Below are positions 2,472 through 19,595 of a stretch of 20,751 nucleotides of DNA, in pieces. Made by a program: the position numbers and the translations under genes. The notes beneath the pieces were generated by a model. That model was given only the letters and a program-made list of their open reading frames with translations, did not search any database and was not told the origin of the DNA. The stretch is from the IMG/VR virus record IMGVR_UViG_3300037189_028300, positions 1 to 20,751 of that record; one strand, written 5' to 3'. Origin of the DNA: a virus. Numbering within the stretch: the first letter of the stretch is position 1; each line of letters begins with the position of its first letter.

Positions 2472-3029
2472 ATGCTAACTCTAGGATCGGGTACCCTTTC
2501 GGTCGCCCCATGGGTCGCAGGTGTTGACCCAGCAAATGTCGCGGCAACGTATTCCACGATTTACACCATTGGTGAGGTCGGTGGCGATGTTGAGCTGAAC
2601 ATCGAGTTCCAGGAAGCCGAATTCCGCGGCCAGTCGAACTTCGTCATCGCCCGCGGCTACTACGGTGGCAACGTCACCGCAGCTGCCCGTTCGGTCGAGC
2701 TGAACTTCGAGAACCTTGCTCGCTTCTTCACGGTCGCGAAGACAACGGTAAGCACCGGCGCTGGCAACAGCAACATCATCAGCACGACACATAACGTGTT
2801 CACGACTGAGTATGATGACAAGCCAACGGCCATGTATGTGCGCTTTGTGCACACCCGAACCGACGACCCAGATAAGAAGGTTGTCGTTCACCTTTGGAAG
2901 GCGTTCTCAACCGCTCTGAACTTCCCGTTCATGCGTGAGGACATCTCGACGACGGACATTGACTTCAATGCCATCGTCGACACAACCCTTACCACGGATG
3001 CGATCATTCGAGTCGAAATCCAGAGCTAA
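2472..3029 (+). CDS. Major tail (tube) protein
   Basis: A 185-residue, mainly beta-strand protein with no membrane or catalytic motif, of the size usual for siphovirus tail tube subunits. It lies between the tail terminator and the chaperones, where the tube gene is expected. GAGGAG at 2458-2463 lies 8 bases before the ATG and overlaps the preceding stop. Codon use is distinctive: all eight Arg codons are CGN and many codons end in C (TTC, ATC, GTC, AAC), unlike the AGA/AGG-rich tape measure. This fits very high expression. A strong terminator follows, which would raise its transcript level over that of the downstream genes. The tube role is inferred from context, size and expression signs. 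Confidence 0.82.
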   Translation: MLTLGSGTLSVAPWVAGVDPANVAATYSTIYTIGEVGGDVELNIEFQEAEFRGQSNFVIARGYYGGNVTAAARSVELNFENLARFFTVAKTTVSTGAGNSNIISTTHNVFTTEYDDKPTAMYVRFVHTRTDDPDKKVVVHLWKAFSTALNFPFMREDISTTDIDFNAIVDTTLTTDAIIRVEIQS

Positions 3030-3056
3030 AACAGCTTTGGACCAGTGAGTCCACAG

Positions 3057-3086
3057 AACCCCCGAGGCTTGTCCTCGGGGGTTTTC
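3057..3086 (+). terminator. Intrinsic terminator after the major tail protein
   Basis: AACCCCCGAGG (3057-3067) pairs perfectly with CCTCGGGGGTT (3073-3083) across a 5-base loop, followed by TTC and a T-rich stretch to about 3092. The stem is 11 bp and GC-rich, a textbook factor-independent terminator. It lies 28 bases after the major tail protein stop. Partial read-through plus the promoter at 3119 would supply the downstream genes at lower levels. Confidence 0.93.
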
Positions 3087-3095
3087 TGCTTTATA

Positions 3096-3124
3096 AATAC
3101 ATATGGCGCTGGTTGCGCTATGAT
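3096..3124 (+). promoter_or_regulatory. Promoter for chaperones and tape measure
   Basis: TATGAT (3119-3124) is a good -10 element. AATACA (3096-3101), 17 bases upstream, is a weak -35 candidate matching TTGACA only in the last three bases. It lies between a terminator and the next gene, where a new promoter is expected. Transcription would start near 3131. Confidence 0.5.
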
Positions 3125-3174: not shown

Positions 3175-3474
3175 ATGGCAAATCTAGTAGAAATTAGCCC
3201 TAAGAAGGCGCTTAACCTCAACGACCTGGCGGACCTTGAGGAGAAGTACGGTTCGGTCGACAAGATCGACTTTAACAAGTTTAACGTGCTCCGCTATGTA
3301 CTTTGGCTTGCGATCAAGCGCAACGAGCCAGAAGTTTCCGAGCGGGAAGTGGGCGATCGATTCGACATCAAGAGCATGCAGGACACCGTCACGAAGGTTC
3401 TTCGCGACAGCGGACTTTTGCCTGAAGAGCCTGAGGAGGGCGAACAGGCGGGAAAAGCACAAAATCCGGCGTAA
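3175..3474 (+). CDS. Tail assembly chaperone, G-type (unshifted product)
   Basis: A 99-residue acidic, helical protein (MANLVEISPKK...) made when no frameshift occurs. ATG at 3175 is preferred over a TTG at 3148 because a GGGAG/AGAAGGA ribosome region precedes it, although AGAAGGA is only 3 bases away. By analogy with lambda gpG, it coats and folds the tape measure protein and recruits tube subunits. The C-terminus (GEQAGKAQNPA) is read only by ribosomes that do not slip at 3450-3456. Placement between the tube protein and the tape measure, and the frameshift signal at its 3' end, identify it; its sequence alone would not. Confidence 0.88.
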   Translation: MANLVEISPKKALNLNDLADLEEKYGSVDKIDFNKFNVLRYVLWLAIKRNEPEVSEREVGDRFDIKSMQDTVTKVLRDSGLLPEEPEEGEQAGKAQNPA

Positions 3475-3788
3475 GTTGGTCAGATATTGATTGGGGAGTA
3501 ATTATGGGGTCATATGCAGATGCCTTTGGATATACGCCAACGGACTTCATGCATATGACCCTTCCCCAGATCGCCTCTTTCGGGCGCTACATGGAAGAGC
3601 GCGATAAGAAGAGTAAGTCTTCTTCAACGCACTCGAAGACTGGCGCAGGAAAGAAGATCCTTGATGCACCGGATAAGCAATCTTCTCTTGAAGCATTGGT
3701 CATGCAGTTTGGCAGCCCAGAAGCAAAGCAAAAGCTTCTGAACGAGCGCATTGAAGCGCTCCGCAAGCGATCCGAGGAAAAGAAGTAA
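3175..3788 (+). CDS. Tail assembly chaperone G-T fusion via -1 frameshift
   Basis: Predicted 204-residue product. Residues 1-94 are read in the G frame to the AAA at 3454-3456; the ribosome then slips back one base on GGGAAAA and continues with AGC at 3456, adding 110 residues to the TAA at 3786. The second frame is open from 3435, right after a TGA at 3432, so it covers the slip site. The joined sequence runs STKSGVSWSDIDWGVIMGSY and looks like continuous protein upstream of the internal ATG at 3504. By analogy with lambda gpGT, the T part binds the tube protein while the G part binds the tape measure. The stop is directly followed by the tape measure ATG. Confidence 0.87.
3433..3456 (+). 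promoter_or_regulatory. Programmed -1 frameshift signal
   Basis: The slippery heptamer GGGAAAA (3450-3456) is in the correct phase, G GGA AAA, so both tRNAs can re-pair in the -1 frame. GAGGAGGG (3433-3440) is a strong internal Shine-Dalgarno-like element ending 9 bases upstream. That distance is close to the arrangement that stimulates -1 slippage in E. coli dnaX. No strong downstream hairpin is obvious. The G-frame stop is at 3472-3474. Confidence 0.9.
3504..3788 (+). CDS. T-region open frame with its own possible start
   Basis: From ATG 3504 this frame gives 94 residues (MGSYADAFGYTPTDF...). GGGGAG at 3493-3498 is 5 bases upstream, so separate initiation is possible. However, the frame is coding-like further upstream (WSDIDWGVI) and the frameshift explains its translation, so a standalone T protein is the less likely main product. 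The second half is charged and rich in Lys, Ser and Glu, suggesting a flexible, helical C-terminus. Confidence 0.5.
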   Translation: MGSYADAFGYTPTDFMHMTLPQIASFGRYMEERDKKSKSSSTHSKTGAGKKILDAPDKQSSLEALVMQFGSPEAKQKLLNERIEALRKRSEEKK

Positions 3789-6700
3789 ATGGCCAAAGGT
3801 TTTGTTGAAGAAAACGTCCTTCTCGGATTAGTCGAATCTGTCGTTATTGCGGTAGAAGACGCTGGCCTTGCAAGAAACCCAGAGTCCGCTCGGGCATACA
3901 TAAAATCAAAATTTGGCGTTGATACATTTGCAATTGAGAACGATATTGACGAGGGCAAAAGGGTAGATGTCTCCGGCATAGAAGCAGCCATTAAGAGAAT
4001 CTATCAAGACGCAAGAATCCAGCCACATCTTTCCGCCGCAATCAAAGAACAGGGCGATGTTTATTCAAAAGGCACAGTTGATCAGATGCTCAGGGTCGTT
4101 AGCGGCTCTGCGCGTAGGGTAACTGCTTCCCCAACAAAACTTAGCGATGATGAGGTTAAGGGGCTTAGAGACGAGTTTATTAAAACCCTAAGCGCAATGG
4201 GTTACAGAAAGAGCTCCGCAGCAATTGATCGTTTCATTAAGGGACAAGCAAAAAAGGGAACACTTCGCGGGCAACTTACGCTAGAAGAGAGCAAGGTCAA
4301 AGGCGGGGAACCATATAAAGTTGTTGTCAAAGACCTTGTTATGCAGTTTGTTGCATCTCAAGCAAGAAAAAGCGTCATCACAAGAACGGTTAATAAAAGA
4401 GAAAACCCAACAAGGTATGCTGAAGAAACTGAAAAAATAAAAGAAATTCAATCGGCACTTGGCAAGCTAGGTTTTCCGACTAAGAAGGAAAAAAGCGGCG
4501 GAAGAGTAACCGGTACCGCAAGGTATATTCAAGAAATCAGTCTTAAAGATCCGCAAACCGCATCGTTTTTGATGGGCTTGCTTTTTTATGATGATAAAGG
4601 TAGACCAAGAAAAGATATTGCAGGCTTTACTGGGGACTGGTCATCTGTTGTTAGGGCAATTCGAGACACCCCAAGGGGAACTCCACTTGAAAGACTTCAG
4701 TCGGCAATAGATGCGGGAGAAATAGATAAAGGGATTCTAAGAGTTCTTAGCAGAAATCTTTCTGGGGCTACAAATCAAATCGTTGTTAAGCCCGGAAAAG
4801 ACGGAGGATTTGATCTTTCTGCGCTGCTAGAAACTTATAGCGATTCGACAGGACTCTTTGAGCGCCTATTCTCGACAATGACCGGCATTAAGGTTTCAGA
4901 AATTAAAAAAATTGCCAAGGAAACGCAAGGAGATCTTCAGCAAAAAGATGACGCAAAAGCGGCAAGGCAGTTAAAGAAGGTCACCGCACAAAGAAATCGT
5001 GCTGATAAGCAGGCTAAAGTTGCAAGGGCGCAAGAACTCGCGGCTGTTGAAGTGGTTGTTGCAAAAGATCTTCGTAAAGAACTTAAGCTTGGAAAAACAA
5101 CACTGAAAGATCACCTAGAAAAAAACCTTCTTAGAAGACTTGACGATATTATTGCAAAATTAAAGCAAACAGATCCCGCCAGCGGATTTAATATATACAA
5201 AGGAGAAAAAAGAGAAGAGCTTGTTGCTGATTCATTAAGAATTCAGTCAGAAATTAATCGAATTACTGGTGTTTTTACAAGGCTATCTGAGATTGATGGC
5301 CTTACGCAAAAGCAAAAGAAGGAGCTTAAAAACCTTGGATTAATTGTTGGCGTTTCTAAAACTCTTTCGAAAAAAATAGAATCTAAAGTTTCTTTGGCGA
5401 CCAATCGGCAGACGGGCTCTACGCAGCTGTCTACGCAGGCATTGAGCGCCATAGAAGAGGAAGCCAGAAAGATAGTAAGAGAAGGAAAAGTTGGCAACCA
5501 GGTTTTTAACACATTAGTAGCTAAGCTTTATGAGCCCGGATCAATTTATGAAGTAAAAAAAGATGATTTTACCGCCTTACTTACGGGGGCAGATCTTTCC
5601 GCAAAGCTTGAAAAAGAAACAAAGGATCAGCTTAAGGCTCTCTTCGGTGGAACAAGGGGGCTATTAGCAGCAGCAAAAAAGGAGCTAAAATCCTCAATCC
5701 AAGGGGTGCTAAATGAAAAGGGGGCCAAGGGAGTAAGTCCGGCCCATGATAGTTTTGTAAAACTAGTTATGGGCTACATTGCCCATGCCCAGAAAACCTA
5801 CGCCTCCGCAGACCCAAGGACCCGAGGCGAAATGATTGTTCCCTTTGCTGCTTCAATGCATCAGTTTCAAGAAGTAGAAAGATTCCTTATTGCAAAACAC
5901 TTGGGCGTGGACCCGTCGGCACTAAGGCCAAATACGTTTGAAAGATACTCACGCATATTGTTAATTTCTGCCCCTTTTATGGACTCAAAAACAGGGTCTT
6001 TGAAAAAGGAAAAAATGATAACGCTCAGGGGAAGAATTACGGGCGTTCCGGATGCTCACAGTGGTCAAGCTTACACTGAATTTTCTTTCCTTTCACAGCT
6101 TTTGTCTGGAACAATTAAGGATGTTTCGCTTTCAGGCAAGGCGGATTTTTTTAGAACTGTTGTTGGTCTTGCTGACATTGCTGAGCAGGAAGATGAAGTA
6201 AGAAAACTTACAAATCAAGCAGCTGCCGCCTTGGAGGCTGGAAAAACAAAAAAGGCTGAAGAAAAAACTTCGCGGGAAAAAGAGGCGCTTGAAGCAATTA
6301 GAAAGATTCTAGCTGGCGACAGGGCTGCATTTACCGATCCGGCAGAAATGCTCAAGCTTGTTTCGTATATCTCAAGCGCAAGGGGCGGAAAGCTTACTGC
6401 AACTAACTTTATTCAGTCGCTGCTCCAGAAAGCATCTGACCAGGGAAATCTCAACGCATCTAAGGCTGATCTTTCCAAGCTTGCTGGTCTATTCAAGATG
6501 GGCGCAGATGGCCAAATTGTTGGCCCTGGAACAAAGGCGCTTGTGGGTGCTGGCGGGCTTCCGCTTGCGAAACTTGCAGACGATCTTAGAAAGGCACTTG
6601 ACCCCAAGGCTGGCGATACGTCAGACATTGGAAAGGCCCTTGGCGAGACACTTAGAACATCTTTCCTAAAGGGTGGGGAACTATTTAAAAAGGTTGCAAC

Positions 6701-9700
6701 TAAGGGTCTAGAAAAAGATCTTACAAAAGCCGCTGACGAGACAGGTAAAAAGCTTGAAGCGGCACAGGCGGCAAGGGCAAAGAGAGAAGAGCGTGCGGCT
6801 GCTGGCCCAAGAACTACGTCAGCTCGTGGAAAGCTTGGTGAGCTGACAAAAAATGAAGCCGGAGAATTTGTAGATGCAAAAGGACGACCCCTTGGCTTTA
6901 AGGGTAAGGGATTTGCAAATCAAGGTACACCAAAACAAGGTGAAAAGGCTTTGGGTGAATACCTAGTCAATCAAGGACTTACTGCAAAGCCAGGAGACCT
7001 TGTGATGAAGCCCGGCGAGGGCCGTGGCTCTAAGCCGATTATTGACCTTGAGAAGACCAAGTTTGTAAGCGAAGCCGCCAAGGAAATTGCCCGTATCGTT
7101 CAGGACGTTCGCGCAAAGGCAATGAAGATTGACCCAGCCACTGGGGCGAAGGTTACGAGTCAAGTTGCAGACTCTCTTGCTGGGCTTCTCAAGGGTCCGT
7201 CAAAGGGTGGGGTTGGATCTAGCGGCCCAATAGGAAAAGCACTTGCATCCGCCATCGATGAAGCAATGGCAGATCCGACCGTTAAGCGCACGTTTACAAG
7301 GGGCGGAGTCAAGATGGAACAGACGGCTCCTGAATTTGTAAAAGAGCGACAGGATATCGCTGCTGAAAAGGGGAAAAAGCTTACCCCCGCGGCGCTAAGA
7401 AAGCGCTTTCTTAAGGACTTCAAGGGGACGGCGGCAACTGCCGTGGCTGCTCGCCTTGGTGTTGATGTGGCCCCTGGCGTTGATCCGGCGAAGGCAATCG
7501 CTGAAAACCTTGCCGCAGGAAAAGCATCAAAGGAACAGGCCGCGCAAGAAAAAAATCAGGCTAAAGAGGTTGCCAAAAGAATAAGGGCTCTTAGGAGAGA
7601 GGTTCGTTTCCGCCAGGGGGCTCTTGCCGATCAAACCAAAGTCGGTGGCGAGCTTGCAAAAGATCAGCCAGGCGTAGCCACAACCGCTGCAATTCGGTCC
7701 AAGCTTGCAATGCAGCGTGTCCGCTCAATGCCGCTTCACGAGAGACGCGCAGCCTACGCGCAAATGGGACTTGGCGGCGCTCCGGCTCGGGCGGCTGGTG
7801 GTGCGCCACAAGGACAGGCTTTCACGGGGCAGGGCATGCAGTTTGTTCCGGGCGCGACTATTGCCATCCCGCAAGTGGACATTGGCCCACTTAAGGAACT
7901 TGCTTCACAGATGTCCGAAGTCGGGAAGATGCTTGCGCTTATTCCAAAGGCGACTATTCCAAAGGGGATGTCCGCTTCCCTAAAGGAAATCGCCAGCCTG
8001 ATGCAGGTGCTTGCAACAGTCAAGACGCCACCAAAGGGTGCAAACGTTTCTGCGTTCAAGAAGCTGATTCAGGACCTTAACAGTCTTGCTGCTTCGTTTG
8101 GCGGTAAGGCGCCAAACACAAAGAACGTTGGAAACATTATTGCCGCCCTAAAATCCGTCAATAAGATCCTAGACGCGCTTTCAGCCATCAACACAAAGAC
8201 GCCTGCCAAGACCCTTCTTGCCAACATGCAAGAATTCAAGAAGTCGCTTTCGTTTATTCCAAAAATGTTCAGTGCGCTTGGGAACATGGACTTTGCCGCC
8301 ATCAGCAATGTTGGCGCAACGATTGCCTCGACTAAGTTCCCAAGCCAGCAGCGACTAGCGGGTATTAACGAAGCCCTGCTAATGATCAAGCAGATCCTGG
8401 AGACCGCCAATGGCATGAAGGGCGGGAGAATGCCAACCATCACTGGTGGGGGCATGGTTGGCGGTGGCGGAGCCCTTGGTAGGGTAAGGAGTCGAGTTTA
8501 CGCGCGGCAAGAGGCACTCGCGCAAAGAGTTCAGGGCCCTGGGTTTGGTCGCTATGGAAGAAACGATAGATTTGGGTCAAGATCTATTGACGCGGTTCGC
8601 GCAATGCCACTCCAGCAAAGGCTGAATTACTACGATCAGATCCGCGAAGAGGCTGCGGCGGGAGGTGGACGGCGACCACCACGCGAGCGACCTGTCAGAA
8701 CGGGTGGCGGCGGTGGTGGCAATAGATTTGGTGGTAGAGACAGGGGCTACAACGCGCCGGCTGGTCAGTTTGGCGTTCCGCGACAAATTGGTGGTCCGAT
8801 GGGCCCACAGATCTCGACTGGAGGCGTTCAGAAGTTTGCAAATGATTCAATGGGAATCCTTGGGAACCTTGCGCAACAAATCAGATTCGGATTCACTCAG
8901 GAAATAACACGGGAAATTGCGCAGTCCTTTGGTCGCATTCTTGCTCACCTCAAGGACGGTATTATCAAGTTCAACTCTACCCTTGAGACGGCAACGGTTG
9001 CCTTCCAAACGCTCTTTGAAAACGAGCAAAAAGCTCAAGGTATGGAAGTTAACTTTGAAAAGGCGAAGGTTGAAGCTGAGGGCCTTGTTGAGGCAATTAA
9101 AAAGTTTGCTAACGTAACTCCGTTTAGATTCCCACAGCTTGCAGAATCTGCAAGAAGAATGCGTGCGTTCGGATTTGAGACCGCCGAAATCATGCCAAAC
9201 ATGCAGGCAATCGGAGACGCGGTAGCAGCGCTCGGCGGCGAAGACGACAAGATCTTTAGAATTACCTACGCACTTGGTCAAATGCGCCAAGCTGGTCGCG
9301 TCTATCAAAACGACATGATGCAGCTGGCAAACGCGGGTATTGCTGGTTACGACATTCTATCTAAGGCTCTTCTCCAAGACTTTGTGAAAATGGGTGATCT
9401 AAGCATTAACCATAACGGAAAAGTGATTGATGATTCAACAATTCAAACGGAAAAGGGATACAACGAGCTTGTCACCGCGATAAATGCCGCAACCCAAGAC
9501 GCAACAAGAAGCCAGGTTACAATCGCAAAATCTTCAAGCAGTGAAATTGCCGCAATATTTAAAAGGGTGGCAGAAGATCCAATTGAAGCAATCCGAGACC
9601 TGACACAAAGTGGGCAGATTGCTGGTGGTGCGGCATCAAGCGCGATCATTGAGGGCCTTGGACAAGAATACGGCGGAGGCATGAAAAAGCTCTCAAAGAC

Positions 9701-12700
9701 GTTTGAGGGAGCATTCTCCACGCTTGCAGACGTTACGCAGGCATTTGTTTCGGACATTACAAGACCGGTATTCAACTCTATTAGAGATGAAATGATTGAC
9801 CTTGGAACCTTCCTTCAATCTATGTTTGTTGGAAGAATAGTTAAAAATGTTGCTGCTGGTTTTGAGAAGATTGTAGGTCCAGTACAGGAAGTTATTGGCT
9901 CAATATACCAGGCCATCACTGCTGTCCTTACTGGAATCATTCAGCTGTTCGGTGAGTTTAGCGGCGCGTTTAACCTGATGGACAACGGAGTCATTAGATT
10001 TGTCAATGGAATTGCAGAGATAAGAAGAACTTTTGAAAAGACAACAGGGGCAGGGCAGGAGTTCATTGCAAGAATTGGCAGTGGCATTAAGGTTGTCGCG
10101 GACCTATTGCAATTCCCACTTGCAAAAGGCCTAGCCGCAGCGGCAATTGGGTTTAAGGTGCTATCTGTTGCATGGAATATGAATCCTTTGCTTCTTGGCC
10201 TAACCGCCATAACAATATCACTATCTTATCTTAAGGATATCCTCTCAAGCGATGAGGGTTCTGGATTTGCGAAGGGGATATCTGGAATTGCTGCATCTCT
10301 AACGGATCTTGCAAGAAGCTTTAAGCAGAAAATTATGCCACTTCTTTCAAAAATTATGGAAGGAATTGGCTCGCAGTTCTTTGTGTCGCTACTTGCCACG
10401 TTTGGTCTAATGATTCCAATTCTCCAAAAACTCCTTGCTCTTGTTAACACCCTCTTAGAATTGATTAATTCTCTGCCGTTTGTACCAGACGTGCTCGGGC
10501 TTGTTGCTGGATTCCTGCTTATGAAGAAAATGCTTGGCCCGCTTGGGCAAATGATGCTAGGAAAGCCGGCCTCCCTTGACGCTAGGGGAAATCCAATTGC
10601 AGCAACAAAGGGACTCATTGGGACGCTAGAGTCCGGAATTAACAAGATTACGGCAAAACTTCTTCCATACTCAACGCTTGTTGAGAGAGCCCCGTCAATT
10701 GTTACGCAGAGGGGAATGCCTCAGGTTCCAGTTGGCACTCTTGGAAGGCCGGGTGCCCCAACTGGTTTTGGTGCAGTTGCGGGTAATCTGCAAAAAGTAG
10801 TTGTTCCAGCAGCAGAGAAGAAGATGCTTTCAAGTCAGATGCTGAAGCAACTCCTTGCAAGTGGGGCTATTAGATTTGATGAGTATAAATTGGCCATGGA
10901 AGCTCGCAGGGCCGCAATGGAGGCAGCTGCAAATTCCGGTACCGGACCTGGCGGCATTAGTGGGCTAAGGAGACTTGCGCAAACTGGTGGTGGCAGATCC
11001 GCTGCGCTTAAGGCGCTCGGTGGCGGATTTACGGAATCTCCGCTTGGGGCCATAATGAAGTCAGAGGGACTTCGCGATGCATTTAATCGCCTTCTTTTGG
11101 TGCTTAGAAACCTAAAAGCACTTACGTTTGGGGTAAGCAAGATAAAGGCCTCATCAGATGCAATCAAATCGCTCTTTAAGGCAATTTCGGCTGGGGCAAG
11201 GGCTATTCCAAGGTCCGCAGTAAGCGCAATCAGCAAGTTGATGAAGTCATTTGTTCTTGCCTCTGCACTAAAGTTTAACTCTACTATCTTTAGTATTGTT
11301 CCAAAAGTATTTGTGCCGTTTATGGATGCAGTCAAGGCAACTGGAGTAAGCGGAACTGGTGGAGATATTGTCGGAAGCGTAAGGAGAGCCGCTGCCGCCG
11401 GGATGAATAGGGCGGGCAGGCTTTCGCTGGCTGGCGCCCAGGTTCCATTTGCAATGCCAAAACAGGGGGTTACTGGCGGGCCTATTGGGTATCTTGTTCG
11501 GGCAATTCGTGGGCTTCGTCCAAACAGACTTCCGTTTGAGGCTCCCGGTAAGGCGGCGGCTTCCGTGGGCCAAAGAGTTGGTCCAATTAATCGAATAATA
11601 GAAGCTGTTGTCCAAAGAACGGCAACGCAAGTACCGGTTGGAACTCTTGGCGCCCCCGGCGGTCGTTCTGGATTTGGCGCTATTGCCGGGGCGATTGAGA
11701 AGGTGTTCCTGCGGTTCTCGGGCGGGGCAGCGCCAACGGCGCAGGGCCTACCAAGGGCGCAGGTTCTTGGCGGATCTCCTTCGATGTACGGGGTTTCAAT
11801 CTTTAAGGTAATCCAGGAAAGAATTAAATATCTGACTGGGAAGGTTGCTGATACGGCTGGTCTTTACGCTGCAAGAATAACAACGGCGTTTGAGAAGTCA
11901 TTTATGGCATTCCACAGGATGATGATCCGCCTAGCGGGCGCCCCAGCAAGAATCTTTACCATGCAGAACTTTGACAAAATTATTACAAGATACGCAGAGA
12001 TGATGGTTAAAGCCTTTACCCCAAAGACTGTCCCTATGGCGGGGTTCCTTGCTGGCGGCACCAAAAAGGCTCCTACAGAGCTGTTTGCCGGGCTAAAGGA
12101 TGCTATTGCCAGAAGGGTAATACCAAACACTCTTGTTGGTGCTCCTGGGCCAACCTTTACAGACAAGATATTTGCTGGGGCAGACAAGCTTGCAAAGGTT
12201 TCTGAGCGCTTTGCGGAGATGATGGTCAGGGGCTTTGCCCCAAAGACTGTCCCGATAGAGAAGTTCCTTGCCGGAGGAACGGTCCGAGCCCCCAAGGAAT
12301 TGTTTGCGGGGCTGAAAGACGCAATTGCAAGAATTGTAATTCCAGATAAATTCACACAGCCAATAAGCATCTTTGACCGGGCAGTAGCGTTCTTTAAGGG
12401 GGCAATTACAAGATTTGGCTCCTTTGTTGGCGCAATAAGAACGGCCCTTGCCGCTGCCGGGGGTGGAATTGGAGGCGTAGTTGGCAGGGCTGCTGCGTCA
12501 GTTGGCGGAGGCGCACTTGGCCTAGCGGCAGCATTTAAGGGATCAAGAGGAGTGCAGGCCCTGACTGCGGGACTTAAGACTGCCAGCTCTGGGATTAAGT
12601 CACTTGTTGGTAAGATTGGCCTTCTTACACTTGGATTCCAGGGATTTACTACTGCGATGACAATTCAAGAAAGAATGAAATCAGAGAAAAACAATGAGGG

Positions 12701-14915
12701 CGCGATTATTGCCCAAGAGGGTGCCGGTTTTGCTGGTTCTGTTGGCGGATTCTTTGGAGCCAAGGCATTGGGCGCAAGGGTTGGCGGCGGAATTGGGACA
12801 TTCCTTGGTGGGTCAATTGGTACCATGTTGGGAATGATGATTGGTGGCGCCATAGCCTCTATTGTTGCAAGCTTTATTTTCCCGAATAGAGAAGTTACTC
12901 CGGCAGAGCAAGATCGAGAGGGCAAGCTAGGGGCAATTGATGAATACTACTCTGACCAAAGAATGCAGGGGCAAGAATTTTTCCAGCTGTTGCAAGATTT
13001 TGATTTTACCCCAATAGAACTTCTTGACATTGGAAAAATGCCGGAATACCACAGGTCAGTAGAAAATTTCTTTGATCTAATAAAGTCAGGGACCAATACG
13101 ATTATTCCAACAATGGGAGAGTCTTTGGACTTTGCGCTTCAGGGTCTTGGCAATGAGGTTTTCAAGCCAAGGGACAAAAAGGGAACAACATTTATGGCTT
13201 ACCTAACTGATTTGACTGATCAAATCAGAGGGAAAATGGCCAAGTTCTACCAGAATCAGGGCAAGTCGCCAATGGAAGCACTCATTTTGGCCCAGGCAGA
13301 ACTTGCAATGAAGATTGCAGATATGGGTCAATTTAAAACACTAGAGGATGCGATGTCCGCGTTTGCCCAACTAGCAAGAGGTGAGGGAATCAACCCAGAA
13401 GCAGTAGATGGGTATGGGCTATTTATCGGAAACCTAAACTCTGGCCTTGAAAAATTGCAATCTAACCTAGAGAAAGTTAGAAGCGAGTTCCAGAAACTTG
13501 CGGGAAGATTGCAGTCAAGAATCAACGCGGTATTTGAGCAGCAAATGGCTAAAGCTCTGGAAAAGGCAAAAGACGCGTTCCTCGCGACTCAAATGGTTAT
13601 GGTTGACGGGGCAGAAACAAATATCCTTGCCTTGCGGGAAGAGATTGAGGCAACCGAAAAGAGAAACAAGCTTCTTGCCATTGAAAAGCGACTTCGAGAA
13701 GCCGCCAGAAGCGTTGAGATGGCAAAGCTTGGTCAGTATGACGCGTCTATGGACCCGCTTGAGGCAGCGGCAAGAATGAGAGACGCCCAAGAGGCTCAAA
13801 CGGAAGCCGTTAAGGAGGCTGCTCTCGAAAGGAAGAAGATCGCCCTTGAAGAGGCCATGGCCAGCGATCCTGTGGTCGCTGGACTTGAAGATGTCGACGA
13901 AAGATTTGAGGCTGCAAGAATGAAGTTCCAAGAGGGCATGGAAGACATCCTTGATCTTGTCGAGCAGGGCAAGCTTACTGGTACGCAAGCTGCTGCAAAG
14001 ATTAAGGAGCTTTACACAACAACTCTTGGTGAAGTTGGTGTTCTTGATGCAAACCTTGATGTTGATGCCAAGAACTTTGGGGACTCATTCCTTAACACAT
14101 GGGATACAATCCTCAAGAAGTTTACCGCTATTGTTACAAAGCTTAAGGCGGCAATAGCGGCAGTTGCAAACTATAAGCCGCCCGCAAATCCTCCCGGGAT
14201 TTCGACAGATGATGGGCTTGATACTGCCGGCCTGCCAAATAGCGAAAGCGTTCTTGGCGGAAAAGCAAAAGACAACTACCTGGGCTTTGGAATTAATTTT
14301 GACAAAACCTTAATGTCAAGATTAATTGAAGGCAGAATGAAGGCAATCATTCAGGTTCTAAACCTTGAGAGGGATAAGAACATGGCTGGGCAAGTATATA
14401 CCGACCCAGATAGGCAGTTGGGGTACGCAACTGCGATCAATAAAACATTAAACTCACTTACATCAACGGGTGGAGAGCTGTACAAAATGACCGTTGCGGC
14501 AAAATCAAGCGGAAACGGGCAGGATTCCTTTACTTCCAACTGGAAGAGCTGGATTAAGAGGACCTTTACATATATGGACACTTACTCAGGAAAAGTTTTG
14601 CCGCTAAAGCAAGATCATCTTGCAAGGCTTGCAAGCGGCGGTGAGGTTATGGGTGTCGGTGGCATGTTCCAGGTTGGCGAGACTGGCCGAGAGACCCTTC
14701 AGGTGGTTCCTGGCGGCGTTGCAAGGATCTTCCCAAGAAGAATCCGACCAATCAACCAGATTGGCATGGCTGGCGGCAGTGGCGGTGGCATCAACGCAAG
14801 TGTTATAATCAACAACCCAACGGTCAGGAGCGATCAGGACATCCGCAAGCTGGCTGATGCCGTTGGTAAGGCGCAGTCGTCGTTGTTGAGGTCCGCGGGC
14901 ATCGGGAGAATATAA
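3789..14915 (+). CDS. Giant tail tape measure protein (3708 aa)
   Basis: The protein sets tail length and is ejected with the DNA. ATG directly follows the chaperone stop; AGGA at 3775-3778 is the ribosome site. Residues 1 to about 1300 are a Lys/Arg-rich, mostly helical extension with no known domain. About 1320-1700 has helical segments split by Gly/Arg-rich disordered linkers. The tape-measure core (TIGR02675-like) spans about 1700-1861 (FANVTPFRFPQLAESARRMR, QMRQAGRVYQNDMMQLANAG) and continues to about 2020. Hydrophobic stretches are at about 2107-2152 and 2196-2250, and a Gly-zipper at about 2995-3031. A coiled coil covers about 3218-3358. The C-terminus (3616-3708) is the typical GGEVMGVGGMFQVGETGRE element, Gly linker and INNPTVRSDQDIRKLADAV. 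No lytic domain is seen. Length predicts a tail of up to about 550 nm. Confidence 0.97.
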   Translation: MAKGFVEENVLLGLVESVVIAVEDAGLARNPESARAYIKSKFGVDTFAIENDIDEGKRVDVSGIEAAIKRIYQDARIQPHLSAAIKEQGDVYSKGTVDQMLRVVSGSARRVTASPTKLSDDEVKGLRDEFIKTLSAMGYRKSSAAIDRFIKGQAKKGTLRGQLTLEESKVKGGEPYKVVVKDLVMQFVASQARKSVITRTVNKRENPTRYAEETEKIKEIQSALGKLGFPTKKEKSGGRVTGTARYIQEISLKDPQTASFLMGLLFYDDKGRPRKDIAGFTGDWSSVVRAIRDTPRGTPLERLQSAIDAGEIDKGILRVLSRNLSGATNQIVVKPGKDGGFDLSALLETYSDSTGLFERLFSTMTGIKVSEIKKIAKETQGDLQQKDDAKAARQLKKVTAQRNRADKQAKVARAQELAAVEVVVAKDLRKELKLGKTTLKDHLEKNLLRRLDDIIAKLKQTDPASGFNIYKGEKREELVADSLRIQSEINRITGVFTRLSEIDGLTQKQKKELKNLGLIVGVSKTLSKKIESKVSLATNRQTGSTQLSTQALSAIEEEARKIVREGKVGNQVFNTLVAKLYEPGSIYEVKKDDFTALLTGADLSAKLEKETKDQLKALFGGTRGLLAAAKKELKSSIQGVLNEKGAKGVSPAHDSFVKLVMGYIAHAQKTYASADPRTRGEMIVPFAASMHQFQEVERFLIAKHLGVDPSALRPNTFERYSRILLISAPFMDSKTGSLKKEKMITLRGRITGVPDAHSGQAYTEFSFLSQLLSGTIKDVSLSGKADFFRTVVGLADIAEQEDEVRKLTNQAAAALEAGKTKKAEEKTSREKEALEAIRKILAGDRAAFTDPAEMLKLVSYISSARGGKLTATNFIQSLLQKASDQGNLNASKADLSKLAGLFKMGADGQIVGPGTKALVGAGGLPLAKLADDLRKALDPKAGDTSDIGKALGETLRTSFLKGGELFKKVATKGLEKDLTKAADETGKKLEAAQAARAKREERAAAGPRTTSARGKLGELTKNEAGEFVDAKGRPLGFKGKGFANQGTPKQGEKALGEYLVNQGLTAKPGDLVMKPGEGRGSKPIIDLEKTKFVSEAAKEIARIVQDVRAKAMKIDPATGAKVTSQVADSLAGLLKGPSKGGVGSSGPIGKALASAIDEAMADPTVKRTFTRGGVKMEQTAPEFVKERQDIAAEKGKKLTPAALRKRFLKDFKGTAATAVAARLGVDVAPGVDPAKAIAENLAAGKASKEQAAQEKNQAKEVAKRIRALRREVRFRQGALADQTKVGGELAKDQPGVATTAAIRSKLAMQRVRSMPLHERRAAYAQMGLGGAPARAAGGAPQGQAFTGQGMQFVPGATIAIPQVDIGPLKELASQMSEVGKMLALIPKATIPKGMSASLKEIASLMQVLATVKTPPKGANVSAFKKLIQDLNSLAASFGGKAPNTKNVGNIIAALKSVNKILDALSAINTKTPAKTLLANMQEFKKSLSFIPKMFSALGNMDFAAISNVGATIASTKFPSQQRLAGINEALLMIKQILETANGMKGGRMPTITGGGMVGGGGALGRVRSRVYARQEALAQRVQGPGFGRYGRNDRFGSRSIDAVRAMPLQQRLNYYDQIREEAAAGGGRRPPRERPVRTGGGGGGNRFGGRDRGYNAPAGQFGVPRQIGGPMGPQISTGGVQKFANDSMGILGNLAQQIRFGFTQEITREIAQSFGRILAHLKDGIIKFNSTLETATVAFQTLFENEQKAQGMEVNFEKAKVEAEGLVEAIKKFANVTPFRFPQLAESARRMRAFGFETAEIMPNMQAIGDAVAALGGEDDKIFRITYALGQMRQAGRVYQNDMMQLANAGIAGYDILSKALLQDFVKMGDLSINHNGKVIDDSTIQTEKGYNELVTAINAATQDATRSQVTIAKSSSSEIAAIFKRVAEDPIEAIRDLTQSGQIAGGAASSAIIEGLGQEYGGGMKKLSKTFEGAFSTLADVTQAFVSDITRPVFNSIRDEMIDLGTFLQSMFVGRIVKNVAAGFEKIVGPVQEVIGSIYQAITAVLTGIIQLFGEFSGAFNLMDNGVIRFVNGIAEIRRTFEKTTGAGQEFIARIGSGIKVVADLLQFPLAKGLAAAAIGFKVLSVAWNMNPLLLGLTAITISLSYLKDILSSDEGSGFAKGISGIAASLTDLARSFKQKIMPLLSKIMEGIGSQFFVSLLATFGLMIPILQKLLALVNTLLELINSLPFVPDVLGLVAGFLLMKKMLGPLGQMMLGKPASLDARGNPIAATKGLIGTLESGINKITAKLLPYSTLVERAPSIVTQRGMPQVPVGTLGRPGAPTGFGAVAGNLQKVVVPAAEKKMLSSQMLKQLLASGAIRFDEYKLAMEARRAAMEAAANSGTGPGGISGLRRLAQTGGGRSAALKALGGGFTESPLGAIMKSEGLRDAFNRLLLVLRNLKALTFGVSKIKASSDAIKSLFKAISAGARAIPRSAVSAISKLMKSFVLASALKFNSTIFSIVPKVFVPFMDAVKATGVSGTGGDIVGSVRRAAAAGMNRAGRLSLAGAQVPFAMPKQGVTGGPIGYLVRAIRGLRPNRLPFEAPGKAAASVGQRVGPINRIIEAVVQRTATQVPVGTLGAPGGRSGFGAIAGAIEKVFLRFSGGAAPTAQGLPRAQVLGGSPSMYGVSIFKVIQERIKYLTGKVADTAGLYAARITTAFEKSFMAFHRMMIRLAGAPARIFTMQNFDKIITRYAEMMVKAFTPKTVPMAGFLAGGTKKAPTELFAGLKDAIARRVIPNTLVGAPGPTFTDKIFAGADKLAKVSERFAEMMVRGFAPKTVPIEKFLAGGTVRAPKELFAGLKDAIARIVIPDKFTQPISIFDRAVAFFKGAITRFGSFVGAIRTALAAAGGGIGGVVGRAAASVGGGALGLAAAFKGSRGVQALTAGLKTASSGIKSLVGKIGLLTLGFQGFTTAMTIQERMKSEKNNEGAIIAQEGAGFAGSVGGFFGAKALGARVGGGIGTFLGGSIGTMLGMMIGGAIASIVASFIFPNREVTPAEQDREGKLGAIDEYYSDQRMQGQEFFQLLQDFDFTPIELLDIGKMPEYHRSVENFFDLIKSGTNTIIPTMGESLDFALQGLGNEVFKPRDKKGTTFMAYLTDLTDQIRGKMAKFYQNQGKSPMEALILAQAELAMKIADMGQFKTLEDAMSAFAQLARGEGINPEAVDGYGLFIGNLNSGLEKLQSNLEKVRSEFQKLAGRLQSRINAVFEQQMAKALEKAKDAFLATQMVMVDGAETNILALREEIEATEKRNKLLAIEKRLREAARSVEMAKLGQYDASMDPLEAAARMRDAQEAQTEAVKEAALERKKIALEEAMASDPVVAGLEDVDERFEAARMKFQEGMEDILDLVEQGKLTGTQAAAKIKELYTTTLGEVGVLDANLDVDAKNFGDSFLNTWDTILKKFTAIVTKLKAAIAAVANYKPPANPPGISTDDGLDTAGLPNSESVLGGKAKDNYLGFGINFDKTLMSRLIEGRMKAIIQVLNLERDKNMAGQVYTDPDRQLGYATAINKTLNSLTSTGGELYKMTVAAKSSGNGQDSFTSNWKSWIKRTFTYMDTYSGKVLPLKQDHLARLASGGEVMGVGGMFQVGETGRETLQVVPGGVARIFPRRIRPINQIGMAGGSGGGINASVIINNPTVRSDQDIRKLADAVGKAQSSLLRSAGIGRI
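7719..8642 (+). repeat. Two copies of a VRxMPLxxRxxYxQ motif in the tape measure
   Basis: The motif begins at residue 1311 (VRSMPLHERRAAYAQ, base 7719) and again at residue 1603 (VRAMPLQQRLNYYDQ, base 8595). Both lie in Arg/Gly-rich parts flanking a helical block, and both are followed by Gly/Ala-rich linkers. The span given includes the sequence between the copies. This looks like an old internal duplication. Confidence 0.6.
10722..11720 (+). repeat. Two copies of a QVPVGTLG...GFGA motif in the tape measure
   Basis: QVPVGTLGRPGAPTGFGAVA starts at base 10722 and QVPVGTLGAPGGRSGFGAIA at base 11628, 302 codons apart. Each is followed by a related helical start (GNLQKV and GAIEKV). Codons differ between copies, so the duplication is not recent. 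The span given runs from copy 1 to the end of copy 2. Confidence 0.75.
11988..12346 (+). repeat. 73-codon direct duplication in the tape measure
   Basis: Copies start at 11988 and 12207. About 46 residues are strongly conserved: R-[YF]-AEMMV-[KR]-x-F-x-PKTVP, then FLAGGT, and AP-x-ELFAGLKDAIAR-x-VIP. The DNA has diverged at many third positions while the protein is kept, pointing to an older duplication under selection. Confidence 0.88.
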
Positions 14916-17900: not shown

Positions 17901-19595
17901 CAAGTTCGGGCAATGAGTACAGATAACACCGCAAGCGAAATGAGCGATGACTCAGAGATTGTCAGCCCGGTTCAAATCAAGAGCGAGGACCTAAGCAATA
18001 ATGCCATTACGGCCAGCAAGTTGGCGTCAACACTTAAGGCAATAGAGATCATATCCGAAGCAACCCTGCCCACAGTACCGTCTTCAAGCTACCCAGAGGG
18101 GACCATTGTCTACCACCTTGGCGGGACTCCTGCGGGACTCAGGAAGGTTGCCGCTGGCGGCGCGGCCTGGGAAAACGCAGTTGGAAGCAATGACATTGTC
18201 GCCAACTCTATTACCGCTGGTCTTATTAGCACAGCTGGAATTGACGCTGGAGTTATCAAGGGTGGGCAGCTTTATCTAGACGACCGATGGGGCTCCGAGG
18301 GGGCGACTTTTTACATTAAGACAAAGCAAAGAACTGGATACACGGTAACCCTGACAACCTCTAACGCTGAGGGAACCCTTGTTTCCCACAACGTTGCGGT
18401 AGGCGAAAGGGTCAGAATCGCAAACGCAGACGCAACAGTTGGCCAGGGGTTTGACGGTGTCTTTACAGCGATATCTGGGACAACTGGGTCGACGCTAAAG
18501 TACACCTCCCTTGTTACCGGCACTGTTGCGGCCACAACGCTCTCGCCATTCGGAACCGGAAATGAGAAGAACGACTACTACTCCATAACCTCACCAAACT
18601 TTAAAGTTGGCTCAAACGGGGCAGTTGAGGCAACGGATGCATTCCTTTCAACAGTGACTGCATCTGGTTCAAGCTCAAAACCAGGAGTCCTAATTAGCAA
18701 GAATTCAAACATTGGCGACCTTGCCGTCCTTACCGGAGAGGTCCTCAGCGTTGGGCACTACACGCAAAGCCCAGCAACATTCACGGAGAGAATGAGACTT
18801 GATGCCTCCGGCCAGCTTAGACTCTACGATGGGTATTTCGCAGTAGGCCGATCTTCAGACATATTTAAGGTTAACTACAGCGGGCTTGTTACCGTCGGCA
18901 ACGGAACAAGCGTTGCTGGCGATCTTAGGGTTTACGGTAACGGAAGCGCCGGTAGCGATGGGGCGATTAGGATTTACGGCGGAACCCCAGGAACCACAAA
19001 CGGAGCAACGCTATCATTTGACGGAGCAAATGGGCGGTTTAACATGAATAACGACCTTAATGTTGTAGGCAGTATAACCTCGACAACAAAAGTAACCGTA
19101 GATGACACTATCGCAGGCGGTATTGTTTTTGACAGTACAACGGATGGGCAAATTTGGTATACCTCAGGCCTATTTTATGTGACTGAGGATCTACGTGTCA
19201 GCGTTTCCATCACTTCAAGCTCATCTGATCTTTACATTAGTACCACTTCGGGGGCTGGAACGATTTCGAGATTTAGTTCCGCAAGAAGGTACAAGCAGGA
19301 TATTGAAGATTTCACTGTTCCGCTAAGTGATGTTTTGCAATTGCGCCCAGTAACATTTAAATGGAACCCAGAAACAACTAAGAGCGAGGAGACTGGCTCA
19401 ATGACCGGACTGATTGCTGAAGAGGTTGAGGCAATTAGCGATGACATGAAGCGTATTTGCAGATACAACGAAGAGACTGGGGAGATTGAAAGTGTTCAAT
19501 ATTCCCAACTACCAGTCTTCCTTATTGGCGCAATTAAGGAGTTGGCCCAGAAGAACAGCGCCCTTGAAGCCCGAATCGCAGAACTAGAAGCCTAG
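14916..19595 (+). CDS. Tail-tip hub and fibre protein with S74 chaperone (1559 aa)
   Basis: Probable tail-tip and host-recognition protein. ATG follows the tape measure stop directly; GGGAGA (14904-14909) is the ribosome site. Residues 1-150 look like a baseplate-hub start (VLFAGYVTRVSTR, EVECADNTALLEE). Hub-like parts return at about 425-490 (SARNVLDYISQKTGGEFWVD) and 690-830. Inserted are a beta module (276-345) and a carbohydrate-binding-like module (about 499-645). After a PPTPAPP linker comes an Fn3 domain (about 845-1020) containing a second beta module (892-966). A stalk with repeated NAITASKLAS/NSITAGLIS-type segments and a third module (1137-1200) follow. Residues 1455-1559 are an S74 intramolecular chaperone with the likely Ser1455-Lys1460 dyad (SARRYK), ending in a coiled coil. 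No separate distal-tail or hub gene is present, so the functions seem fused. Receptor unknown. Confidence 0.92.
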   Translation: MADVRVYVKLKYEGTTEAFYDISKRVNYENLNWESNSEGTSANATIDLWTILPKSQTAVQDYAGATEASKINAAIADESFVIEIPSKTEIRILDIATSPDTVLFAGYVTRVSTRKDGGAITQEVECADNTALLEELIIADFYGARDSRDIDIINGGDGISTSAASLPSIVGQVDGLQVSSEAVGGSLSDGVYSVRIQARSTTLLGRDAAAPQYSQVTSAISITLSAGTLTQRLKVKWKNASLANQHRVYVTKDSGSSYLGDTATTLLSAIDITAANRASNVVTVTTASPHGLAAGDPIIVSIPQTAGFSVTLEDYVMATATTTNTISYASVGSDGSATITGAKLTSGSSAYVSSLVTAESPTTLTSSSARGWIDGEFYVVAGNTYRLGVGDDNIRGWQYPISIFDSLFDKSMITAGTLDVETYVNAVDTQYRFSPYLPESDTANYEQYGGRSARNVLDYISQKTGGEFWVDKGTIDGSGNYKAYLHYGAKTPKELTANGIYDGNIDGWTTASGFAIGSASSGPYGAGYSVVSSTSNTKIETASASRVATVPGRKYFFSVRGKVSAHQARWGANIVWYNSGGAELSTVSMGSLPGSPVGTWHRVWKTATAPASAAYFGLRGLCTNLQSGSASFTDWSAVQITGAMGYGDVEDSATHAVPVYEMEIPSSPVESGNSANRLHLYAVFRTRDADGNKVALTDESGNPVQYVDYDFVPGIWATNGKIIETAKTDDKVETLADAQLAAQGFWKENGLPIESYEFDIRPRDAYDAVYPVPNVGDIIPFIWDTMDVAKPLIVKSVKAKMLGMDVVYSITVGGDIRLQRNSFILVSERLRELDKINPVPPTPAPPSEIHAVASIQSATVSWGFNEDIERNKNLSSFEVQRQDGIFKAITNVARALTTVTITTSGAHGMVNGDKVRIEMDNDIYGQAANKIEGEWTVTGTTTTTFTYTSVESGLITSVAATGWAIYNFTEFRTIQNTKANYINDNGLSYALNYRYQVRAMSTDNTASEMSDDSEIVSPVQIKSEDLSNNAITASKLASTLKAIEIISEATLPTVPSSSYPEGTIVYHLGGTPAGLRKVAAGGAAWENAVGSNDIVANSITAGLISTAGIDAGVIKGGQLYLDDRWGSEGATFYIKTKQRTGYTVTLTTSNAEGTLVSHNVAVGERVRIANADATVGQGFDGVFTAISGTTGSTLKYTSLVTGTVAATTLSPFGTGNEKNDYYSITSPNFKVGSNGAVEATDAFLSTVTASGSSSKPGVLISKNSNIGDLAVLTGEVLSVGHYTQSPATFTERMRLDASGQLRLYDGYFAVGRSSDIFKVNYSGLVTVGNGTSVAGDLRVYGNGSAGSDGAIRIYGGTPGTTNGATLSFDGANGRFNMNNDLNVVGSITSTTKVTVDDTIAGGIVFDSTTDGQIWYTSGLFYVTEDLRVSVSITSSSSDLYISTTSGAGTISRFSSARRYKQDIEDFTVPLSDVLQLRPVTFKWNPETTKSEETGSMTGLIAEEVEAISDDMKRICRYNEETGEIESVQYSQLPVFLIGAIKELAQKNSALEARIAELEA
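15741..18510 (+). repeat. Three diverged copies of a VTVTT-HG-GD beta module
   Basis: Copies begin at bases 15741, 17589 and 18324 (residues 276, 892, 1137). The shared pattern is a strand [VT]-x-V-T-[VIL]-T-T-[SA], then HG[LM] (lost in copy 3), G-[DE]-x-[VI]-x-[VI], about 20 residues, and a closing strand such as TTFTYTS or STLKYTS. About 60-75 residues each. The span given includes the sequence between copies. Confidence 0.75.
16410..16845 (+). other. Carbohydrate-binding-like module in the tail-tip gene
   Basis: Residues about 499-645 start DGNIDGW and contain YFFSVRGKVS, WYNSGGAELS, GTWHRVWKTATAPASAAYFG and a closing FTDWSAVQI strand. This order is typical of jelly-roll CBM4/9-like modules. 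It interrupts the hub-like part of the protein and may bind host surface sugars. Confidence 0.7.
19278..19595 (+). other. S74 intramolecular chaperone domain
   Basis: The segment S1455 to A1559 has the S74 features: SARRYKQDIEDF, LQLRPVTFKWNP, GLIAEEVEAI, VQYSQLPVFLIGAIKELA and a final coiled coil. The Ser-x4-Lys spacing matches the Ser911/Lys916 dyad of endosialidase NF. Family knowledge predicts trimerisation and then self-cleavage just before Ser1455, releasing about 105 residues. Confidence 0.9.

Follow-up and report, generated by a model that had tools for sequence, protein, structure and literature searches.

A conserved −1 frameshift in the tail module of a freshwater bacterial virus, with a variable Shine-Dalgarno-like element and a hairpin over the start of T

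The G and T genes of the tail module

The window, that is, the whole 20,751-nt stretch of DNA analysed here, comes from a freshwater virus of bacteria which makes two forms of a tail-building helper protein through ribosome slippage. The G/T locus belongs to the lambda G/GT kind of −1 frameshift, a mechanism that is itself well known; its flanks show an instructive natural variation of a Shine-Dalgarno (SD)-like element upstream of the shift site and a hairpin with a putative role over the start of T. The signals setting the frameshift rate in phage tail chaperones have been little studied. Here, close relatives share the same heptamer and fusion, exist with or without a near-perfect SD-like element and all carry a codon-selected hairpin, a natural comparison in which each signal can be tested directly for its role.

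The pair of short open reading frames (ORFs), G and T, directly precedes the tape measure gene, as expected for a chaperone of the lambda G/GT type. G (3175..3474, + strand; 99 aa, zero frame, stop codon TAA at 3472-3474) is assigned as a tail assembly chaperone based on its ORF, a match to phrog_2115 (“tail protein”, E 5e-9) and gene order. The T part of the G-T fusion (3456..3788, + strand; −1 frame, 110 residues after the shift) is defined by its open frame and by the conservation of T-frame codons, and the tape measure protein gene (3789..14915, + strand; 3708 aa) by its ORF and a match to Pfam TMP_3 (E 1.8e-10). A putative major tail protein is encoded at 2472-3029, as judged from gene position and a weak match to phrog_2175. 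G is 81-97% identical across 15 viral contigs from IMG/VR, and searches yielded no detectable relative of G among 50,697 annotated phage records or among 84,980 genomes of bacteria and archaea; in annotated phages, relatives were likewise lacking for the putative tail protein encoded upstream (2472-3029) and for part of the tape measure protein. Neither G nor T matched a chaperone family in Pfam. Structure prediction for G gave a moderate model (pLDDT 77), with which fold searches returned no significant match, the viral fold search producing weak tail-assembly hits, all with E >0.1.

Several other features of the module were recorded. A strong terminator-like stem of 13 pairs (3055-3085) lies between the putative major tail protein gene and G, so that G, T and the tape measure gene may form a separate transcript. 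The window also contains a short inverted repeat, ATGGCGC-TGGTT-GCGCTAT, at approximately 3104-3122, which recurs in contig L020. Tail length follows a rule of approximately 0.15 nm per tape measure residue, by which the 3708-aa protein predicts a tail of roughly 550 nm, which is unusually long. A 1559-aa tail protein carries a C-terminal Peptidase_S74 intramolecular chaperone domain (18600-19592 of the window, E 1e-10). At the other end, ORF 16-870 encodes long proline/threonine-rich PTPEPTP repeats followed by a glycine-rich tail, and is neighboured by a small ORF of membrane-like character (867-1064) and by an HNH endonuclease (1104-1556).

Comparative evidence for the frameshift

The slippery heptamer G_GGA_AAA (3450..3456, + strand) is located near the 3′ end of G, upstream of the TMP_3 tape measure gene. 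Its first base is the third of a G codon (GCG GGA AAA), placing it in X_XXY_YYZ phase, so that after slipping by −1 the tRNAs paired with GGA AAA in the P and A sites can pair anew with GGG AAA. Behind a TGA at 3432-3434, the −1 frame is open from 3435 as far as a TAA at 3786-3788; with this TGA closing the T frame on one side and G ending at 3472-3474 on the other, the switch is confined to approximately 40 nt, and GGGAAAA is the only canonical heptamer in this overlap. With roughly 10 possible codon positions in the overlap, chance would supply approximately 0.003 in-phase GGGAAAR heptamers. The first-pass annotation had described a correctly phased heptamer, a T frame open across it and a G-T fusion of 204 residues; the phase and the open frame are as it stated, and translation reproduced both the length of the fusion and its junction, GK-STKSG. 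The site had no match in Rfam. GGGAAAA has been reported as the −1 site of the tail chaperones in phage Bush (PMC11749239), and is named as a frameshift site of phage TM4 in a citation carried by PMC4626039.

Scans of IMG/VR identified 15 related viral contigs with G and T, and alignment-based scans gave the same 15. These fall into clade A (L008-L011 and L021, together with the window), clade B (L012-L019 and L022) and L020, and the comparison comprises only seven distinct sequences (haplotypes). The start codon of G is GTG rather than ATG in L020 and most of clade B (near 2672 in L014, L019 and L020, near 2120 in L022), which could reduce G synthesis relative to the clade of the window; L012 retains ATG.

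GGGAAAA, including both codons GGA AAA, is invariant in 15/15 contigs and is always located 47 nt before the T ATG. No contig has the T frame without the heptamer, a combination that would have spoken against the first-pass annotation. In nine contigs, and also in L020, a stop codon 6 nt upstream of the heptamer keeps the −1 frame closed up to that point, so that no other entry site to the T frame fits. In L020, the G stop is shifted to two codons past the heptamer, and the T frame is nonetheless open. In the stretch separating the G stop from the T ATG (3475-3503), all 7 variable columns are third positions of T-frame codons, and the T-frame residues WSDIDWGVI upstream of the first ATG are invariant among the homologues. 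ATG, GTG and TTG are all absent from the T frame upstream of 3504 in the window, so that translation of 3475-3503 needs a frameshift. The comparison of homologues strongly supports the G-T −1 frameshift at GGGAAAA, and we are highly confident that it is real.

An SD-like element upstream of the heptamer varies among relatives

The SD-like element GAGGAGGG (3433..3440, + strand) ends 9 nt upstream of the heptamer, with its core AGGAGG at 10 nt. It is the strongest anti-SD match in the window (rank 1 of 20,744 octamers, −10.3 kcal/mol), exceeding the SDs at gene starts, which range from −5.9 to −7.2 kcal/mol for most genes, the best being −7.2. Since the starts of this phage are SD-led, the host very likely carries the matching rRNA. 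Both dnaX and IS elements provide precedents for SD stimulators, with stimulation of −1 slippage by SD-like sequences at a spacing of 9-14 nt (PMC5009743), and SDs at 6-17 nt have been handled as experimentally proven stimulators (PMC4066793). The first-pass annotation had placed the element 9 nt upstream of the heptamer, at a spacing close to that of dnaX-like stimulation, and both points stand: GAGGAGGG at 3433-3440 and GGGAAAA at 3450-3456 are separated by 9 nt, which falls within the known range.

The distribution of the element is more complex. GAGGAGGG is invariant in clade A, and its codons GAG GAG GGC are unchanged throughout this clade although 46 of the 78 codons for conserved G residues vary there, which we take as mild evidence for constraint on the element. 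In L020, GAGGAGGG is replaced by GGAGG at 13 nt, whereas the nine clade B contigs have ACCGATGGT instead and no SD, with the heptamer and the T frame kept. Thus, the element is not conserved together with the shift site, being absent in 9 of the 15 homologous contigs. Clade B is sister to L020 on the tree, so that an SD must have been lost in one lineage or gained in two. A candidate replacement contact in clade B, GGUGA, was rejected as weak and of a strength commonplace in the window. Given that sister phages without GAGGAGGG keep the heptamer and the T frame, the element is not a required part of the signal. The proposal that pairing with 16S rRNA, rather than an RNA structure, is the stimulator stands in part: the strength, the spacing and the conservation in clade A speak for it, and the absence of the element from 9 of the 15 contigs speaks against it. 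Moreover, a strong conserved hairpin is present downstream, although at 31 nt it is too distant to act as an ordinary stimulator.

GAGGAGGG might well be incidental, the DNA form of the acidic G tail EEPEEG, with GGGAAAA alone, perhaps together with downstream structure, setting the rate family-wide; we consider this a credible reading without leaning towards it. When LLPEEPEEGEQ, the segment containing the acidic tail EEPEEGEQ, was recoded synonymously with the codon usage of the window, an equally strong match at 8-14 nt arose in 24% of cases (p = 0.24), and the retention of the heptamer and T frame by clade B after the element was lost points the same way. So do the surveys beyond the family: SD-spacer-GGGAAAAG matches showed no enrichment of tail-chaperone sites over the control spacing (among the matches listed, 4/121 chaperone-like sites with spacers of 8-12 and 3/122 with spacers of 18-22, a comparison of low power), and ten phages found via the T protein of L144, a member of an unrelated lambda-T family, had no strong SD at 8-14 nt (best −5.9), with KS9 and Bcep176 among them carrying SD-like runs closer to the site. 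Against an incidental origin, the element is the top anti-SD octamer of 20.7 kb and lies at optimal spacing, its codons are fixed in clade A amid the variation described above, and the different SD of L020 is built from different codons. In addition, L144 and L286 of the lambda-T family (Phage_TAC_13 and Phage_tail_T) share the same GAGGAGGG-N9-GGGAAAA arrangement, although they were found by searching for that pattern. We lean towards GAGGAGGG being a plausible lineage-specific booster, which probably pairs with 16S rRNA and modestly raises slippage in the clade of the window.

A conserved hairpin covers the start of T

A strong conserved RNA hairpin (3488..3573, + strand; approximately −42 kcal/mol, 30 pairs) encloses the SD-like GGGG of T and the T ATG at 3504. 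Its stem starts 31 nt past the heptamer and approximately 14 nt past the G stop. In the window, the 64 nt immediately downstream of the heptamer are no more stably folded than shuffled sequences (z +0.8), whereas a stretch of 120 nt reaches −45.7 kcal/mol (z −4.0). The first-pass annotation had reported no strong downstream hairpin, which proved incorrect, since 3488-3573 folds strongly and is conserved in every relative. Compared with synonymous recodings, the hairpin has a z score of −2.2 in L020 and scores between −3.8 and −4.9 in the other six haplotypes, and in a scan of 253 segments of 108 nt each, the two covering the stem rank second and third. Across homologues, 97.6% of the cells of the stem are paired, compared with 36-51% in slid controls. 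Three pairs have changed on both sides, the covariation being modest as there are only seven distinct sequences. CCC accounts for 18 of the 211 proline codons in the window and is invariant where it pairs with the GGGG before the T ATG. Collectively, these comparisons indicate that the hairpin is selected at the codon level.

The footprint of a terminating ribosome ends near 14 nt past the stop codon, that is, at about the start of the stem. The hairpin is likelier to block T's own start than to stimulate slippage directly, a preference which follows from its beginning 31 nt past the heptamer and from its holding the SD-like GGGG of T and the base of the ATG. Tentatively, its foremost candidate role would be to lock initiation at T, so that T is made only within GT, at a fixed ratio.

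A possible weak hairpin (3464..3485, + strand) lies closer to the heptamer, 8-9 nt after it, with predicted energies of −3.7 to −8.4 kcal/mol across homologues; in several of them its pairing probability in context is low, and it has no covariation support, the bases being mostly fixed by amino acids. Pairing of GGCGUA (3468-3473) with the hairpin loop UACGCC would form a pseudoknot, but this candidate was rejected, as reading of the alignment showed it to be broken in L010, L011 and L020. It is unlikely, in our judgement, that the hairpin at 3488-3573, possibly stacked on the weak one, is the real stimulator in a long-range or composite arrangement. Unlike the SD-like element, the hairpin is present in all relatives and under codon-level selection, RNAalifold predicts both hairpins 2 nt apart, and conserved hairpins are common near bacterial −1 sites (PMC4066793). 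However, the stem starts 31 nt past the heptamer, so far away that a ribosome with AAA in its decoding site should not have reached it, and the nearer hairpin is the weakly paired one that lacks covariation.

It is very improbable that T is mainly a separate protein started at the first ATG of its frame (3504..3506, + strand), with the fusion minor or absent. This ATG is conserved and is preceded by a good SD, GGGGAG (−6.7 kcal/mol); yet both are sealed inside the conserved hairpin, and the codons past the G stop and ahead of the ATG have changed only synonymously, leaving every residue conserved, for which there would be no need if T started at 3504, so that the ATG is possibly an unused start. 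Least probable is that GAGGAGGG serves initiation instead of frameshift stimulation, the start codon in relatives being a GTG at 3448: a GTG does occur 7 nt past the position of the element in 6 of the 7 haplotypes, but the window carries GCG there, the in-frame product would be a peptide of only approximately 9 aa and the GTG is present without an SD in nine contigs.

A model for the G:GT ratio

In the frameshift itself, for which the comparison of homologues provides the evidence, most ribosomes would translate G through to the TAA at 3472-3474, while a minority would slip −1 on G_GGA_AAA and continue through T to 3788, yielding the 204-aa G-T fusion. If the proteins act as in lambda, G would coat the tape measure protein and GT would recruit the major tail protein. 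For the two flanking signals, we infer that in the clade of the window GAGGAGGG, located 9-10 nt upstream, probably contacts the 16S rRNA while the ribosome is elongating and modestly increases slippage, and that the hairpin at 3488-3573 may keep ribosomes off the SD and ATG of T, so that T would appear only within GT, at a fixed ratio. A scheme in which two parts control the G:GT ratio, the heptamer being tuned by an SD-like booster subject to gain and loss and a conserved hairpin beyond the footprint of the ribosome at the G stop sealing the ribosome-binding site of T so that frameshifted ribosomes alone could make T, is conceivable, although we regard this combined scheme as doubtful.

Comparison with known frameshift systems

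As in lambda G/GT, TM4 and Bush, two overlapping ORFs are located ahead of the tape measure gene, the −1 slip occurs close to where G ends, at a G_GGA_AAR heptamer, and the T domain is an extension that has no start of its own in the overlap. The locus differs in that G has no detectable relative in the 50,697 phage records, in that no Pfam chaperone family matches G or T, and in the flanks of the site, where an SD-like element is found and a conserved hairpin covers the start of T. Conserved hairpins have been found in 3 of 5 phage clusters (PMC4066793). The locus resembles dnaX of Escherichia coli in that an SD-like sequence precedes the heptamer by 9-10 nt, within the range stimulating −1 slippage (PMC5009743). 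It differs in the heptamer, which is GGGAAAA here and AAAAAAG in dnaX, and has no strong stem-loop at the classical distance (64 nt, z +0.8; the strong hairpin is 31 nt away). In addition, the SD-like element is not conserved across the phage family, and the frameshift product is longer rather than shorter. The signals of IS3-family/IS911 transposases offer a further parallel, combining an SD and RNA structure around X_XXY_YYZ with a −1 product which is an extension, although the genes and their function differ. In IS911, the RNA structure closely follows the slippery motif, whereas in the phage studied here it starts 31 nt after it.
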